DNA from: Anaerolineales bacterium
GTDB lineage: Bacteria > Chloroflexota > Anaerolineae > Anaerolineales > Villigracilaceae
Assembly: GCA_014860745.1 (NCBI GenBank)
Contig: JACZJC010000045.1
Coordinates: forward strand, 1 to 64,000
Length of the DNA: 64,000 nucleotides
Direction of reading: 5' to 3'
In this document: in pieces, positions 14,002-27,574 of the stretch
How positions within the stretch are numbered: the first letter of the stretch is position 1
Layout of the letters: each line of letters starts with the position of its first letter
Program-made: the position numbers and the translations under genes
Notes under the pieces: generated by a model
What the model was told of the DNA's origin: nothing
What the model saw: only the letters and a program-made list of their open reading frames with translations
Database searches by the model: none

Positions 14002-14026
14002 CATCCTTTATCCTTCATAATTCATC

Positions 14027-14057
14027 ACTTCGACAAGCTCAGCACAAGCCTTTCCCC
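14027..14057. repeat. Dispersed CTTCGAC repeat abutting the tatD start
   Basis: Same 30-bp sequence as 15913-15942, including the 3' extension GCCTTTCCC that ends directly at the ATG in both places. It replaces any Shine-Dalgarno sequence of the tatD gene. Confidence 0.75.
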
Positions 14058-15846: not shown

Positions 15847-15912
15847 TTTTGTAGTTCGATAGTTTGTAGTTTCCGAATTGCCCTTCTTCCTCATTCATCC
15901 TTCCAAATCCAT

Positions 15913-15942
15913 ACTTCGACAAGCTCAGTACAAGCCTTTCCC
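15913..15942. repeat. Dispersed CTTCGACAAGCTCAG repeat abutting the yceD start
   Basis: Near-identical to the copy at 14027-14057. Its 3' end is one base from the ATG at 15944, exactly as at tatD. Confidence 0.75.
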
Positions 15943-21574: not shown

Positions 21575-21592
21575 GTTTGCAAGAGCCGAAAC

Positions 21593-21692
21593 TCGATATT
21601 CGGGAATCGAGAATCGGAAATCGGTTGTAGGTTTCAAAAGTCCTCCAATCATTAAGCCGAATTGCGAATATCGAATAACGATTCCCGATTTC
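21593..21692. repeat. Imperfect inverted repeat upstream of metG
   Basis: Left arm at 21593-21624 (TCGATATTCGGGAATCG then GAATCGGAAATCGG) and right arm at 21664-21692 (GCGAATATCGAATAACG then ATTCCCGATTTCC). The arms are mutually complementary in blocks. The repeat fills the space between the leader terminator and the metG ribosome site. Confidence 0.55.
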
Positions 21693-21724
21693 CTTTTCAC
21701 AAGTTCCGAAAAACGGAGTTCATA

Positions 21725-23638
21725 ATGAACGAGAATATCCTTATTGCCATCGCCTGGCCATACTCAAACGCCGAGATCCATGTCGGGAATATCACGGGCT
21801 CCCATTTGCCCGGTGACATTGTTGCGCGCTACCATCGCCTGAAAGGGAATAAAGTCCTCGTGGTATCGGGGACGGATTCACATGGCACGCCCGTTGTCAT
21901 CGCTGCGGACAAGGAAGGCAAACCTGTAGAGGAAGTCTACAAAAAATATCACGATTCCTTTATCGAAGTCTTCAAAGGCTACGGCATCACCTACGATATG
22001 TTCACGACCACGCACAGCGAGAACCACTTCAAGGTCTCGCAAGCCATGTTCCTTGCCTTGCAAAAGAACGGATTTCTTTTCAAGCAGTTCAGCAAACAAT
22101 GGTACTCCCCCAGCGCGGACAAGTTCCTGCCTGACCGCTATGTGGAAGGGACTTGCTACATCTGTGGTTTCGAGTATGCGCGTTCTGATCAATGTGATAA
22201 CTGCGGCAACGTGCTCGAACCCGAAAAGTTGATCAATCCGCGCGCCAAGACTGGCGACGGTGCGCTCGAATTGCGTGACACCGAACATTTTTATCTCGAT
22301 CTTTCCAAGCTTGAGCCTGATGTGAAAAACTTTTTGCAGGAACGCGCCCCGCACATGCGCGACACCGTCATCGGCGAGTCGCTGCGCAAGATTGAAAGCG
22401 AAGGTCTCAAAGCCCGCTCCATCACACGCGACCTTGATTGGGGCATTCCCGTTCCCGTCGAAGGCTGGACGGAAGCAGGCAAGCGCATTTACGTTTGGTT
22501 CGAAGCAGTCATCGGCTACCTCTCCGCCCCAATTGAGTGGAGTCAGGTATCAGGTCAGAAAGATGCGTGGCGCGATTGGTGGACGAATCCCAAAGCGAAG
22601 CAATTCCACTTCATCGGCAAGGACAACATCTTCTTCCACACATCGCAATGGCCCGCTGAATTGATGGGCGCGGGAAGCGCGTTCATGGAAATCTTCGAAC
22701 CCGCCCTCTCCCCCGACCCCTCTCCCAGTGGGAGAGGGGAGACAGGGGTTAAATTGACCCTGCCGTATGATGTGCCCGCCAATCAGTTCATGAACCTCGA
22801 AGGCAAAAAGATCAGCGGCTCGGGTAATTGGGGCGTGTGGGGACTCGACGCTTTGACGCGCTTCGACCCCGATGCCCTGCGTTATTACCTGACCGTCAAC
22901 ATGCCTGAAGCAAAGGACAGCGATTGGGATTGGGCCGAGTTCGTGGCGCGCAACAACAACGAACTGGTGGCCACATGGGGTAACCTTGCGAATCGCGTGC
23001 TGGCATTTTGTTACAAGAATTGGGATGGGCATGTGCCATCATTGGAAGATATGGGTAGGGGCGGGGTCATCCCGCCCGAGGGTGCAAATGGAGAAAAGGG
23101 CACGGAGACCGCGCCCCTAAGGCCTGCCGATCTTGAATTGTTGAAGACCATCGAAAATGGATTCAACACTGTGGGCGCGGAACTCGAAGCCGTGCGCCTG
23201 CGCTCTGCACTAAGCGAAACGATGAAACTCGCCACCGTGGTCAATCAATATCTAGATGTCAACGCGCCGTGGTCCGCCATCAAAGTGGATAAAGACGGTG
23301 CATCGAAGACAGTCTACACCGCGCTCAAAGCCATCGACTCGCTCAAGATCATGTTCGCCCCCTTCCTGCCCTTCACCTGCGAAAAACTGCACGGCTTCTT
23401 CAACTACGAGACTCCGCTCTTCGGGGAGCAATACACCGAGACGGTGAAAGACTCGCTCGGTGAGCATACGGTGTTGAGATATCGTGATGTCAGTAGGGGC
23501 GAATCAATGACTCGCCCCTACATTGCCTGGAAACCCAGCGAGTTGCAGCCTGGGAAGAAGTTGAATCAGCCAGCGCCATTATTCAAGAAACTAGACGAAA
23601 GCGTTATTGAAGAAGAGAGGGCGAGATTGGGGAAGTAG
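21725..23638 (+). CDS. metG: Methionyl-tRNA synthetase carrying three in-frame repeat insertions
   Basis: Class I synthetase charging tRNA-Met, 637 residues from the ATG at 21725 (RBS CGGAG); an upstream in-frame start is unlikely. The HIGH motif is HVGN (18-21), the zinc knuckle is CYICGFEYARSDQCDNC (about 139-160), and the KMSKS loop reads KKISGSGNW (about 360), with Gly in place of the second Lys. WGNLANRVLAF starts the anticodon-binding domain. The C-terminal EMAP-type tRNA-binding domain is absent. Three palindromic repeats lie in frame, encoding PALSPDPSPSGRGETG (about 327-342), GRGGVIPPEGANGEKG (about 443-465) and SRGESMTRPYIA (about 589-600). The first two lie just before and after the KISGS module. 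Translation through them is uninterrupted. Confidence 0.93.
   Translation: MNENILIAIAWPYSNAEIHVGNITGSHLPGDIVARYHRLKGNKVLVVSGTDSHGTPVVIAADKEGKPVEEVYKKYHDSFIEVFKGYGITYDMFTTTHSENHFKVSQAMFLALQKNGFLFKQFSKQWYSPSADKFLPDRYVEGTCYICGFEYARSDQCDNCGNVLEPEKLINPRAKTGDGALELRDTEHFYLDLSKLEPDVKNFLQERAPHMRDTVIGESLRKIESEGLKARSITRDLDWGIPVPVEGWTEAGKRIYVWFEAVIGYLSAPIEWSQVSGQKDAWRDWWTNPKAKQFHFIGKDNIFFHTSQWPAELMGAGSAFMEIFEPALSPDPSPSGRGETGVKLTLPYDVPANQFMNLEGKKISGSGNWGVWGLDALTRFDPDALRYYLTVNMPEAKDSDWDWAEFVARNNNELVATWGNLANRVLAFCYKNWDGHVPSLEDMGRGGVIPPEGANGEKGTETAPLRPADLELLKTIENGFNTVGAELEAVRLRSALSETMKLATVVNQYLDVNAPWSAIKVDKDGASKTVYTALKAIDSLKIMFAPFLPFTCEKLHGFFNYETPLFGEQYTETVKDSLGEHTVLRYRDVSRGESMTRPYIAWKPSELQPGKKLNQPAPLFKKLDESVIEEERARLGK
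22701..22750. repeat. Palindrome CCCCTCTCCCAGTGGGAGAGGGG family inside metG
   Basis: The core is at 22717-22739, a near-perfect inverted repeat (CCCCTCTCCCA / TGGGAGAGGGG), with flanks CCCTCTCCCCCGA and AGACAGGGG typical of this dispersed family. Its frame has no stop and adds a Pro/Ser/Gly-rich stretch to MetRS. Confidence 0.8.
23056..23119. repeat. Compound palindrome TAGGGGCG..CGCCCCTA inside metG
   Basis: The outer arms TAGGGGCG (23056-23063) and CGCCCCTA (23112-23119) are perfect. An inner hairpin CGGGGTCATCCCG follows the left arm, and GGGCACGGAGACCGCGCCCC precedes the right end. It is in frame, with no stop. Confidence 0.75.
23493..23521. repeat. Palindrome GTAGGGGCGAATCA family inside metG
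   Basis: GTAGGGGCGAATCA, a one-base centre, then TGACTCGCCCCTAC: 13 of 14 positions complementary. It is in frame near the C-terminus of MetRS and shares the GTAGGGGCG arm with the 23056 element. Confidence 0.8.
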
Positions 23639-24982: not shown

Positions 24983-25054
24983 TTAGATAAGTTTTTCTTC
25001 ATCCAGCAAGGGATCAATCCAGCCTTCGGCGTTAAGTCGCTGGTAGAGTTCGCG
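24983..25054 (-). pseudogene. TIR gene fragment (remnant 1)
   Basis: In the minus frame the sequence reads RELYQRLNAEGWIDPLLDEEKLI then a stop next to the terminator. This is nearly identical in DNA to positions 20-45 of the two intact TIR genes upstream. No start codon or upstream part remains. It lies 33 bp past the stop of the 25088 TIR gene and appears to be a partial duplicate of the TIR 5' region. Confidence 0.75.
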
Positions 25055-25087
25055 AAGATGATAGCGCAAAATTATTAGCAACTCGAT

Positions 25088-26158
25088 TTACATCTTTGCA
25101 AATCCCAACTTTTGCTTAAGATTTTCTCTGACCTGTTCGTGAACTCTTCGAGTATTTTCCAATTCACTAGATAATTCTCCCATAATTCTAATTGCTTCAT
25201 CGGCAGCAGTCGACATAATGGGTGTTCCATTTTCCCAACTATTTAGATCATTCTTTGATTTTTTAATAATTTCCTCCCTGGTCTTCATTAGTGGAAGACC
25301 TTTCTCAATAGTATTTACGACCCAAAGAATAATAACTGCGTTCGCGGCGTCAACGGGCCAATCTTCTATTGCAGGCAAAATTGACTGATAATATGCACTA
25401 GTAGATTTAGACAGAAGTGAAATTTGCTTTTCAAGCTTTATTGTCAGACTTCTGAGTTCATTACCTGTTTTGTCTAAGATAGATAATCCTCTTTTTATAT
25501 TCGAAGATTTCGGTTTACCTAGCGATTTCAATTTCAAATAGTTTTTCTTTGCGAGCTCATAAAACTCATCATGAGTAGTGTAAACATTGATCATAATATC
25601 TGCCAGTAATTCTAAATTGGTTGTTGCAATATTGAAGAATTCATTCACCTTTGGGTTTTCTATCTTATCCATATTATTCTTAATGTTTTCTTGACCCAAA
25701 TCATCTACATCGAACGAACTTAAAGATTTACTTTTTAATTGTAAGCTTTCTAACAAACGAGCATAACCACTATTTCTCTTTATTTTAGGAAAAAAATCAA
25801 TGTAGTGAAAATTTCTCAAAGACCGTGGCAATATGCAATCGTCGGCTCGCAACGGGATAATAAAGATTGTCCCTTCTGGCTTTTCCCCAGCGATATTTAG
25901 AACAAATCGCAATTCTTTCTGAACATATCCTTCTTTTGTTAATGAACCTTTTGACAAACACACGATCACCACATCAGCGGCTTCCACAGCTTTCTCAATT
26001 TCCATATTCCAATCCTGCCCGGGGAGAAGTTTTTTTTCGTCCAGCCAGGGATCAATCCAGCCCTCGGCGTTGAGTCGCTGGTAGAGTTCGCGGACAACAG
26101 CTTTGTCTTGCGAGGCATAGCAGAGGAAAACACTGAGTTTGCGATCAGTGGTGGGCAT
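25088..26158 (-). CDS. TIR-domain protein with helical C-terminal region
   Basis: 356 residues from the ATG at 26158; a TTG 12 bp earlier is possible. The TIR domain (about 6-140) has LSVFLCYASQDKAVVRELY, IDPWLDEKKLLPGQDW and a putative NADase glutamate at Glu82 in GYVQKELR. The first ~85 residues are nearly identical to the neighbour at 26172, but the remainder is unrelated: a long helical, coiled region with no membrane segment (KIENPKVNEFFNIATTNLELLAD onward). Bacterial TIR proteins act as NAD+ hydrolases or signal-making enzymes in anti-phage defence. The base composition of the C-terminal half is much A/T-richer than that of the TIR half. Confidence 0.82.
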   Translation of the reverse strand: MPTTDRKLSVFLCYASQDKAVVRELYQRLNAEGWIDPWLDEKKLLPGQDWNMEIEKAVEAADVVIVCLSKGSLTKEGYVQKELRFVLNIAGEKPEGTIFIIPLRADDCILPRSLRNFHYIDFFPKIKRNSGYARLLESLQLKSKSLSSFDVDDLGQENIKNNMDKIENPKVNEFFNIATTNLELLADIMINVYTTHDEFYELAKKNYLKLKSLGKPKSSNIKRGLSILDKTGNELRSLTIKLEKQISLLSKSTSAYYQSILPAIEDWPVDAANAVIILWVVNTIEKGLPLMKTREEIIKKSKNDLNSWENGTPIMSTAADEAIRIMGELSSELENTRRVHEQVRENLKQKLGFAKM

Positions 26159-26171
26159 GCGTACTTTCAAA

Positions 26172-27176
26172 TCATAAATCCATTACCATCAACACAATTG
26201 TAATTACGCTTATGATGGCGATAGGACCGGCAGAGTAGAAAGAAGGGTAAATATCAAAGGCATTCAAAGTCGCTTTGACGCCAAGGATCAAAAGAAACAA
26301 AGCCAGGGATATGGACGAATAAAAAACCGGCCTTTTAGGAGCGCGAGCCGTCACAATCGCCGATCCGCAGGATATCAATGCAACAATTCCCTCAAAAATC
26401 TCGCTAGCAGGACTGTCGGATATGTTATTTAAAGCATGAACACCCACAAACAGGATCGTTGAAATCTTGAATATAGAACCAGGCGGTATCTGCTTTCGGA
26501 TGACGAGAAATATCCCTGCCAATATTGAGAATATCCCCATCATTAATTGGTTGGTTGAATCGGAAGAGGTTAGGACATACAGTGCCGCCAATGAAAAATA
26601 AAGGATCAGGGGAATCGTTCCAGCGGTGTCCACTGTGCCTGTTCCCTTAGCCGAAACCAAATCAACCAGCCTTGCGTACATGCTTTTCGCCGGTGGTTTT
26701 ATTTTCTCCCTTGTTTCTTGAGCAGCTTCCGTTTGAGGATACAACTGTTGAAAACGAATATTCAAAGATTGCCGCAAGCGCTGATAAACCTGTTCGCGGC
26801 GTTCCACCGGGAAATAATCAACGTACTGTCTGGCGCGCAAGCGGCGGGGAATTTCACAATCTTCCAGCCGCAATGGAATGACAAAGATCGTTTCCTCGGG
26901 TTTTTCAAGAGCAATATCCAATACCTTGCGTAATTCCTTCTGGATATATCCCTCTTTTGTCATTGAGCCATTCGAAAGGGAAACGATTACCGCGTCAGCA
27001 GCTTCCACGGCTTTCTCGATCTCCAAATCCCAATCCTGACCTGGAAGGAGTTTCTCTTCGTCCAGCCAGGGATCAATCCAGCCCTCGGCGTTGAGTCGCT
27101 GGTATAGTTCGCGGACAATGGGCTTGTCCTGCGAGGAGTGGCAGAGGAAAACGCGGATTTTGCGGGTTTCGGTCAT
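26172..27176 (-). CDS. TIR-domain protein with C-terminal membrane domain
   Basis: 334 residues. The N-terminal TIR domain (KIRVFLCHSSQDKPIVRELY; LPGQDWDLEIEKAVEAADAVIV; catalytic candidate Glu81 in GYIQKELR) extends to about 140 and ends with QYVDYFPVERREQVYQRL. A linker leads to 5-6 hydrophobic helices (about 190-334) with a very short cytoplasmic end (VMDL). The TIR module is thus tethered to the membrane. It is followed 13 bp later by the second TIR gene, so they form an operon. The promoter region (CCTTGTGAAGGTCAAATTATAA) is duplicated 280 bp upstream in front of a decayed copy. Confidence 0.85.
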   Translation of the reverse strand: MTETRKIRVFLCHSSQDKPIVRELYQRLNAEGWIDPWLDEEKLLPGQDWDLEIEKAVEAADAVIVSLSNGSMTKEGYIQKELRKVLDIALEKPEETIFVIPLRLEDCEIPRRLRARQYVDYFPVERREQVYQRLRQSLNIRFQQLYPQTEAAQETREKIKPPAKSMYARLVDLVSAKGTGTVDTAGTIPLILYFSLAALYVLTSSDSTNQLMMGIFSILAGIFLVIRKQIPPGSIFKISTILFVGVHALNNISDSPASEIFEGIVALISCGSAIVTARAPKRPVFYSSISLALFLLILGVKATLNAFDIYPSFYSAGPIAIISVITIVLMVMDL

Positions 27177-27207
27177 TGGGGTGTCCCTATTTCCTTGTGA
27201 AGGTCAA

Positions 27208-27213
27208 ATTATA
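27208..27213 (-). promoter_or_regulatory. -10 box of the TIR operon
   Basis: TATAAT on the minus strand, about 32 bp before the ATG at 27176. An equivalent box with the same flanks occurs at 27491-27496 in front of the TIR remnant. Confidence 0.45.
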
Positions 27214-27234
27214 AAGCAAATGAGGGTGAAGAGG

Positions 27235-27341
27235 GTGCGTCGCATATCATCCCCGCATGGGGGCCAGACTTAATGAGATTCTGCCTGCCCGTAGATTCTT
27301 CTCCTTGATCAGGAAAATCCAGCCCGTCTGGTGCGACGCAC
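27235..27341. mobile_element. MITE-like element with perfect 10-bp inverted ends
   Basis: GTGCGTCGCA (27235-27244) and TGCGACGCAC (27332-27341) are perfect inverted repeats enclosing 87 bp without an ORF. The right end sits at the exact point where the 27309-27458 TIR remnant loses similarity to intact TIR genes, within about 12 bp. No target-site duplication was confirmed. Confidence 0.5.
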
Positions 27342-27458
27342 TCCGGGCGCAGCATCAATCCAGCCTTCGGCGTTGAGTCGCTGGTAGAGTTCGCGGACAA
27401 CAGCTTTGTCTTGCGAGGAATGACAGAGAAAGACATGGATTTTGTGGGTTTCGGTCAT
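27309..27458 (-). pseudogene. TIR gene fragment (remnant 2)
   Basis: Starts at ATG 27458 as MTETHKIHVFLCHSSQDKAV and continues VRELYQRLNAEGWID, matching the intact TIR proteins. At codon 36 it departs into AAPGVRRTRRAGFS and stops. The upstream leader is also a copy of the intact gene's leader. The rest of the 398-bp gap 27177-27574 holds only this remnant, the MITE-like element and promoters. Confidence 0.78.
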
Positions 27459-27574
27459 TGGGGATAGCCCCAGTTCCTTGTGATGGTCAAATTATAAGGC
27501 AGAATTTCTCCATGACCGCGATTCCGGCTTCACTATTCAGGGAGAATCTTCTATAATCCAACTCTGGCAGAATC

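Follow-up and report, generated by a model that had tools for sequence, protein, structure and literature searches.

How does the gene of an essential enzyme come to carry three palindromes within its reading frame? The question is raised by metG (positions 21725–23638, forward strand, ATG at 21725) in the window, by which we mean the whole stretch of 64,000 nucleotides of Anaerolineales DNA that was analysed. The product, a methionyl-tRNA synthetase (MetRS) of 637 amino acids, matches Pfam tRNA-synt_1g with 435.8 bits and Anticodon_3 with 52.8 bits. An earlier inspection of the letters, here called the sequence-only reading, had claimed three palindromes in this frame without a stop codon, and they are present as claimed. 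The genome to which the window belongs comprises 4.32 million bases in 82 contigs, with a completeness of 98.24. Its second metG-like match, one of 27% on contig C56, was identified as leuS and, because of this, the decorated metG is most likely the only MetRS gene of the genome and would then have to function.

The three elements lie on the forward strand of metG and measure 50, 66 and 29 nucleotides. Element 1 (22701–22750, residues 326–342), a nested palindrome, belongs to the CCCTCACCCC/CCCCTCTCCC family and encodes a peptide containing PALSPDPSPSGRGETG. Its inner hairpin, CCCCTCTCCC-AGT-GGGAGAGGGG, is exact (22717–22739, arm 11, loop 1). Element 2 (residues 444–465) consists of two head-to-head hairpins and is better bounded at 23055–23120 than at 23056–23119 as first proposed; the original limits of the other two elements stand. 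GTAG (23055–23058) is at the foot of a 19-nucleotide hairpin (23059–23077), and beyond a linker comes the second hairpin (23098–23116) followed by CTAA, where relatives have CTAC. Two REPs in opposite orientation, a short linker and outermost GTAG and CTA(A/C) make this a BIME-like arrangement. Element 3 (23493–23521, residues 590–599) reads GTAGGGGCG...CGCCCCTAC, one palindrome in which a single pair is mismatched, and encodes a peptide that contains SRGESMTRPY. Here too GTAG (23493–23496) is at the hairpin foot, and the far end is CTAC. Between sites 1 and 2 lies the KISGS signature loop (22808–22822, forward strand, residues 362–366), as had been noted; it is unaltered, and K362, I363, S364, G365 and S366 are invariant in an alignment of 54 MetRS sequences.

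Elements 2 and 3, each with a GTAG tag and a hairpin, are REP-like and element 1 is a member of a separate family of nested palindromes, which agrees with the original view that two unrelated families are involved. We considered element 1 as a REP and rejected the assignment, since inspection by eye of the other 16 places where the CCTCTCCC family occurs showed no common GTAG/CGTC tag. The position of elements 2 and 3 inside metG departs from the extragenic location that characterizes GTAG REPs; it is nevertheless compatible with REP membership, intragenic members being described in the accessible text of PMC3733652.

An AlphaFold2 model of the enzyme (54 sequences) has a mean pLDDT of 82.6. 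Values fall below 50 within the inserts, at residues 332–338, 449–454, 456–459 and 592–596, and in the loop of the KMSKS region, 364–371. The three inserts are thus predicted as low-confidence loops, in line with the suggestion that the insertions occupy loops. The best match in the PDB is Pyrococcus abyssi MetRS (1rqg; Z 36.4, 559 residues, RMSD 2.4), the sequence of which is without most of the site 1 and site 2 segments; site 3 is outside the alignment.

Are the segments absent from related enzymes? MetRS was found in all 61 genomes searched, 37 of which, the window's own included, belong to one genus. From 30 same-genus sequences and 80 further loci, less 21 duplicates and three with stops (L056, L078 and L125), 86 distinct MetRS were assembled; L120 and L121, being incomplete, were left out before the tree was built. 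The long allele occurs in four of the 86 genes at site 1 and in 13 at site 2. At sites 1 to 3 the window has 27, 35 and 22 residues where the commonest allele has 14, 15 and 14, net gains of 13, 20 and 8 residues in place of the 16, 22 and 11 first proposed. Most relatives are without the segments, and the alternative of ordinary conserved protein sequence failed on this comparison.

Clean insertion into today's common allele was considered and dropped, as the net gains of 39, 60 and 24 nucleotides differ from the lengths of the elements. Insertion accompanied by a loss of sequence at the borders suits these gains better. A 13-residue allele of site 2 does exist (in L098 and L111, for example), and against that allele clean insertion of element 2 is possible.

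In the 86 aligned genes every insert is free of stops and keeps the frame, the three stop-bearing loci having been excluded beforehand. Translational bypass of the inserts, which like their excision from the mRNA is an alternative to reading them through, would not call for such intact frames. The likeness to Rickettsia palindromic elements that the sequence-only reading had drawn, as repeats inserted in frame in a protein gene, is borne out for the metG elements.

Two further observations concern metG among relatives. A fourth MetRS loop, near residue 279, has inserts in L023 (genome G001, peptide ARVEPGRN) and in L056. In L056 (3001–5600) and L078 (3001–5553) short ORFs come after a metG frame that looks intact, and behind these the 3′ end of metG occurs once more, which is what an insertion near the end of the gene accompanied by a duplication might leave.

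The palindromes at the three sites are not a product of chance. At site 3 a palindrome of at least 9 bp with no more than one mismatch is present in 24 of 84 MetRS; random segments of the same length from the same genes reach this criterion in 42 of 3625 cases. A site-3 loop of nine residues or fewer is found in 36 of the 84, none of these with a palindrome, and 24 of the 48 longer loops are also without one. Exact inverted repeats (arm at least 9, loop at most 8) in the 86 genes number 15 at site 3, two at site 2, one at site 1 and one everywhere else. Synonymous shuffles (mean of five) give 0.4, 0.2, none and 3.4, respectively. One of the two exact hairpins at site 2, that of G035, is in an allele of normal length.

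The same loops contain unlike elements in different relatives. At site 1 the window has the CCTCTCCC type, while G001 and G008 have a CCTTCTCCC relative, as does L052 when judged by its peptide. The two-hairpin element of site 2 is present in five of 86 MetRS (G000, which is the window's genome, G019, G022, L052 and L057), with a diverged version in L060 and likely remnants in G013, G026 and L086. In G023 this loop has a different GTAG-like palindrome and in G002 a TTCGAC-type repeat. Stems at site 3 include GGGCGAGTC, GGGCAAGTT, GGACAAATT, GTCGGACT and GGGCGAGAT, and TTCGAC-type repeats occur there as well. Within one clade (L090, G017, G036) there are three different site-3 palindromes, with an offset of two bases between the one in G017 and the one in G036, and element 2 is present in G022 with none in its sister G016. 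On a quick tree built without the insert columns, with 26 of 81 inner branches weakly supported, the minimum numbers of state changes are 3, 9 and 20 for sites 1, 2 and 3; such counts are blind to gain versus loss, and gene conversion between species would inflate them.

Related sequences are dispersed in the window's genome. Family 1 (CCTCTCCC, the family of element 1) is at 17 distinct places (24 matches, some counted on both strands), 11 of them inside Pfam-supported reading frames, metG included. Two of the remainder are outside ORFs (L281, L288) and four are unclear (L002, L280, L285, L286). The ten further hosts, named in part after Pfam entries, are a Radical SAM protein, two MalT-like regulators, queG, two ABC proteins and amino-acid-kinase-fold, kynureninase, alpha-amylase and PEP-synthase-like proteins; among the 11 Pfam-supported hosts, metG and queG were compared with relatives. 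In the two MalT-like regulators (L004 and L006, contig C24) the CCTCTCCC element is at an identical position (VSEWVAAL-...-VRVAWLSLDE) and, because of this identity, it may be older than the duplication that gave the two genes.

The GTAGGGGCG...CGCCCCTAC pattern of element 3 is at six places, against one for the pattern read backwards. The six inner stems all differ, four being fully self-complementary and two having one mismatch. A second copy of the whole of element 2 was not found in this genome; its first half (23–24 bases) has matches at three other places, and GTAGGGGCGGGGTCA is common to metG site 2 and alaS. The description of all three palindromes as dispersed repeats stands for the first and may hold for the third, whose related copies are few and differ in their stems; it does not extend to element 2 as a whole. 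A looser GTAGG...CCTAC pattern gives 23 matches in the genome against 489 for the reversed control CATCC-N14..40-GGATG. GTAG-like elements lie inside alaS, leuS, a methylmalonyl-CoA mutase and a TPR protein, and some others are extragenic. A sample of 464 kb (the window and 20 other stretches) contains 51 hairpins with arms of at least 10, of which 14 are wholly in ORFs, 26 wholly outside and 11 straddle an ORF border; many of the 26 are A/T-rich at their ends, in the manner of terminators.

Is metG special? We compared valS, alaS and leuS, taking 30 loci each from among the 41, 32 and 41 matches listed, a sample in which the window's own valS is not included. Exact hairpins number 25 in insertion loops against five in conserved columns, excluding seven that are ahead of the likely start. 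The valS loop KYM..-EFIPV has three residues in 16 of 30 loci; the other loci include ones with a CCTCTCCC, a GACTTCCGAAGTC or a GTAG element in this loop. Near column 611 of alaS an identical element is found in six of 30 loci, perhaps a single event, and the loops of leuS contain several different elements over the 30 loci. In queA the loop can be excised from 19 of 30 genes and has an exact hairpin in three of the 30 (L349, L292, L315). Many loops of queA and queG contain what looks by eye like simple-repeat sequence. For queG, a loop could be excised from 15 of 25 loci, in L367 at the wrong place; the window's genome has a CCTCTCCC element there and relatives have different sequence. The loops of these relatives come close in length to the filled loop, so that in queG the element has taken the place of existing sequence. 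In-frame palindromes are therefore not special to metG, with valS, alaS and leuS alike in this respect and queA and queG partly so. The earlier focus on metG was in consequence too narrow, the more so as other palindromes occupy the same loops in relatives.

The sequence GTAGG-N17-CCTAC was sought in 12 genomes and gave 95 places, against 127 for the reversed control. Seventy-five of the 95, from 10 genomes, were analysed. In 60 of these at least seven of the eight inner pairs are complementary, which the pattern did not demand, and 42 of the 60 are distinct up to strand; each of the eight inner pairs varies among several kinds of standard pair. It is this inner complementarity that makes the case for a class of palindromes and not the match counts, since the reversed control, which was compared by its number of matches, is as common or commoner. 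Forty GTAG palindromes were considered with their flanks, from 40 stretches picked out of the 75 places (two stretches have no palindrome, two have two each, and L322 and L326 are the same gene). Seventeen are in ORFs, 14 of them in the GTA frame and three in the second of the two open frames; by definition the TAG frame is unavailable within an ORF, and its absence among the 17 is uninformative. Several of those outside ORFs supply a TAG stop to a neighbouring gene, at L311 on both sides.

The stem differences from copy to copy suggest a step that copies one arm onto the other, the alternative being selection for the hairpin. We put forward, as a tentative and rather doubtful extension, that the 27-bp GTAGG...CCTAC palindromes of these Anaerolineales form a class with fixed ends and free, self-matched stems that spreads and renews itself by arm copying, the exposed loops of essential enzymes serving as standing landing sites. 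If this were true, the amino-acid sequence of such loops would be dictated by a process at the level of DNA rather than by selection on the protein.

What then is the best explanation of the three segments? We think it likely that they are insertions of short, mobile palindromic elements, kept where a loop tolerates them in frame. The observed basis is the extra sequence relative to kin, the related elements elsewhere, the open frame, the recurrence of unlike families and the low-confidence loops. Weighing against it are the failure to tie any enzyme of movement to the elements, the lack of a second whole copy of element 2, the net gains that differ from the element lengths, the replacement in queG, the 24 longer site-3 loops in which no palindrome occurs and the low pLDDT of the KMSKS-region loop as well. 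Palindromic elements would insert at many places in the genome, with small losses of sequence at the insertion borders. Where an element entered an exposed loop in a stop-free frame it would be tolerated and kept, and the remainder would be purged by selection. Elements within metG would be transcribed and translated as part of MetRS, the decorated enzyme remaining functional and the insertions neutral. Because each enzyme offers few such loops, the same ones would repeatedly take in an element, lose it and take in another, the family varying from species to species. Movement of the GTAG type may be due to a transposase of the RAYT or IS200 kind.

A different explanation is that mRNA hairpins, or the loops that the inserts add to the protein, are selected as useful, for example in pausing, stability or regulation. 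Selection of this sort would account for stems that differ and yet remain near-perfect, as at the 60 of 75 places described above. It sits poorly with an erratic presence between sister species, with unlike families in one loop, with the apparent simple-repeat filling of many queA and queG loops and with the large share of MetRS in which the site-3 loop has nine residues or fewer. We regard it as improbable.

Could template switching on imperfect repeats instead have created the palindromes where they stand, with no mobile insertion? L098 has GTTGG...CCAAC where its sister L111 has GTAGG, a difference that such a process might produce, and it would also fit the six inner stems, four of them perfect, at the GTAGGGGCG...CGCCCCTAC sites and the lack of a second whole copy of element 2 in the genome. 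An origin in place leaves little room for family 1 at 17 places or for GTAGGGGCGGGGTCA in both metG and alaS, and we give it a slim chance. That these are ordinary variable loops with DNA palindromic by chance or composition is very improbable; the three sites are length-variable loops anyway, but the shuffles and random segments contradict the idea unless the alignment is wrong throughout, as does the likeness to dispersed repeats.

Returning to insertion of mobile elements, is there an enzyme to move them? BIMEs, or REPINs, consist of paired REPs, and RAYT is the presumed agent of their movement. Element 2 resembles them in being a REP and an inverted REP joined by a short linker; it differs in lying inside a reading frame, and no RAYT with matching REPs was found here. 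Likewise no REPtron, a RAYT gene flanked by the same REPs, was found in the genome or in the genus loci examined. A RAYT-like gene (L018, 971–1812) matches NF047646 with 29.6 bits, under the cut-off of 80. It lies between 30-base inverted repeats, has a GTAG palindrome and an ACPEPVEG peptide (TTCGAC type by eye) inside its frame, and its flanks have no GTAG palindromes. Pfam Y1_Tnp has two matches in the genome, an IS200/IS605 transposase (L144, 80.4 bits) and one in a frame of 552 amino acids. Among 30 genus loci with Y1_Tnp, drawn from a longer list, none has a pair of GTAG palindromes around the gene (inverted repeats with arms of at least 12), with the proviso that in nine of the 30 no transposase frame was found by motif. 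One of these loci, L132, has a single GTAG palindrome about 1.3 kb away.

Palindromes within genes have been described before. Intragenic GTAG/CGTC REPs, with tRNA synthetases among their hosts, and GTAG repeats in Chloroflexi were published in 2013 (PMC3733652). In the accessible text of that paper the REPs, like those considered here, have a GTAG tag and a hairpin, are single or paired and lie in frame within ORFs, and the TAG of the tag is often the stop codon of a neighbour. The same text notes a single instance, recB of two Xanthomonas, in which the REPs differ while their position is about the same. The present data differ from this in that metG (at three sites), valS and leuS have unlike elements in one loop over many species, and in that the 27-bp elements are palindromic end to end, with GTAG paired to CTAC.

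Rickettsia palindromic elements are likewise palindromic repeats in frame in housekeeping genes and tolerated there. By their description in PMC10969869 they are about 150 bp long with a conserved peptide, whereas the elements considered here are 27–66 bp, and different families of them give unlike peptides at one site. The coding palindromes of Nematomorpha mitochondria (PMC6649704, as far as accessible) are also translated inverted repeats with arms that change together; they are mitochondrial, reach 284 bp and are described as distinct from other coding hairpins. Our literature search, with most subscription journals outside its scope, turned up no description of unlike palindromes that recur within a genus in one and the same loop. 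Palindromes in frame are thus already known, and what is new is the reuse of one loop by unlike families in many species. The original claim of novelty is partly wrong, since intragenic repeats with tRNA synthetases among the hosts, and GTAG repeats in Chloroflexi, have been in print since 2013 (PMC3733652).

Mobile palindromes in frame had been known in Rickettsia and in a small number of genomes rich in REPs. The many species of one order considered here show a given loop of one essential enzyme without an element, with one, with an eroded one or with one of another family in its stead. This provides a natural experiment on the survival of selfish DNA in coding sequence, on how loops gain sequence and on the concerted evolution of arms. 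Such loops can also mislead alignments and annotation.

Other repeats are present in the window. Immediately 5′ of metG, at 21587–21710, are simple repeats of the type AATATCGAATAACG / GGGAATCGAGAATCGG, and in the window's genome, as in some relatives, the queA loop is made up of units that to the eye resemble them. Diverged direct repeats of up to 300 nucleotides, 77% alike, occupy 24986–27501 together with four copies of a 69-nucleotide unit; the ORF under or beside them reads like what we take to be a TIR-domain protein. Repeats ACTTCGAC(A/C)AGCTCAG at 1137–1160, 14025–14048 and 15911–15934 are of the TTCGAC type, which is also found in coding loops of relatives.
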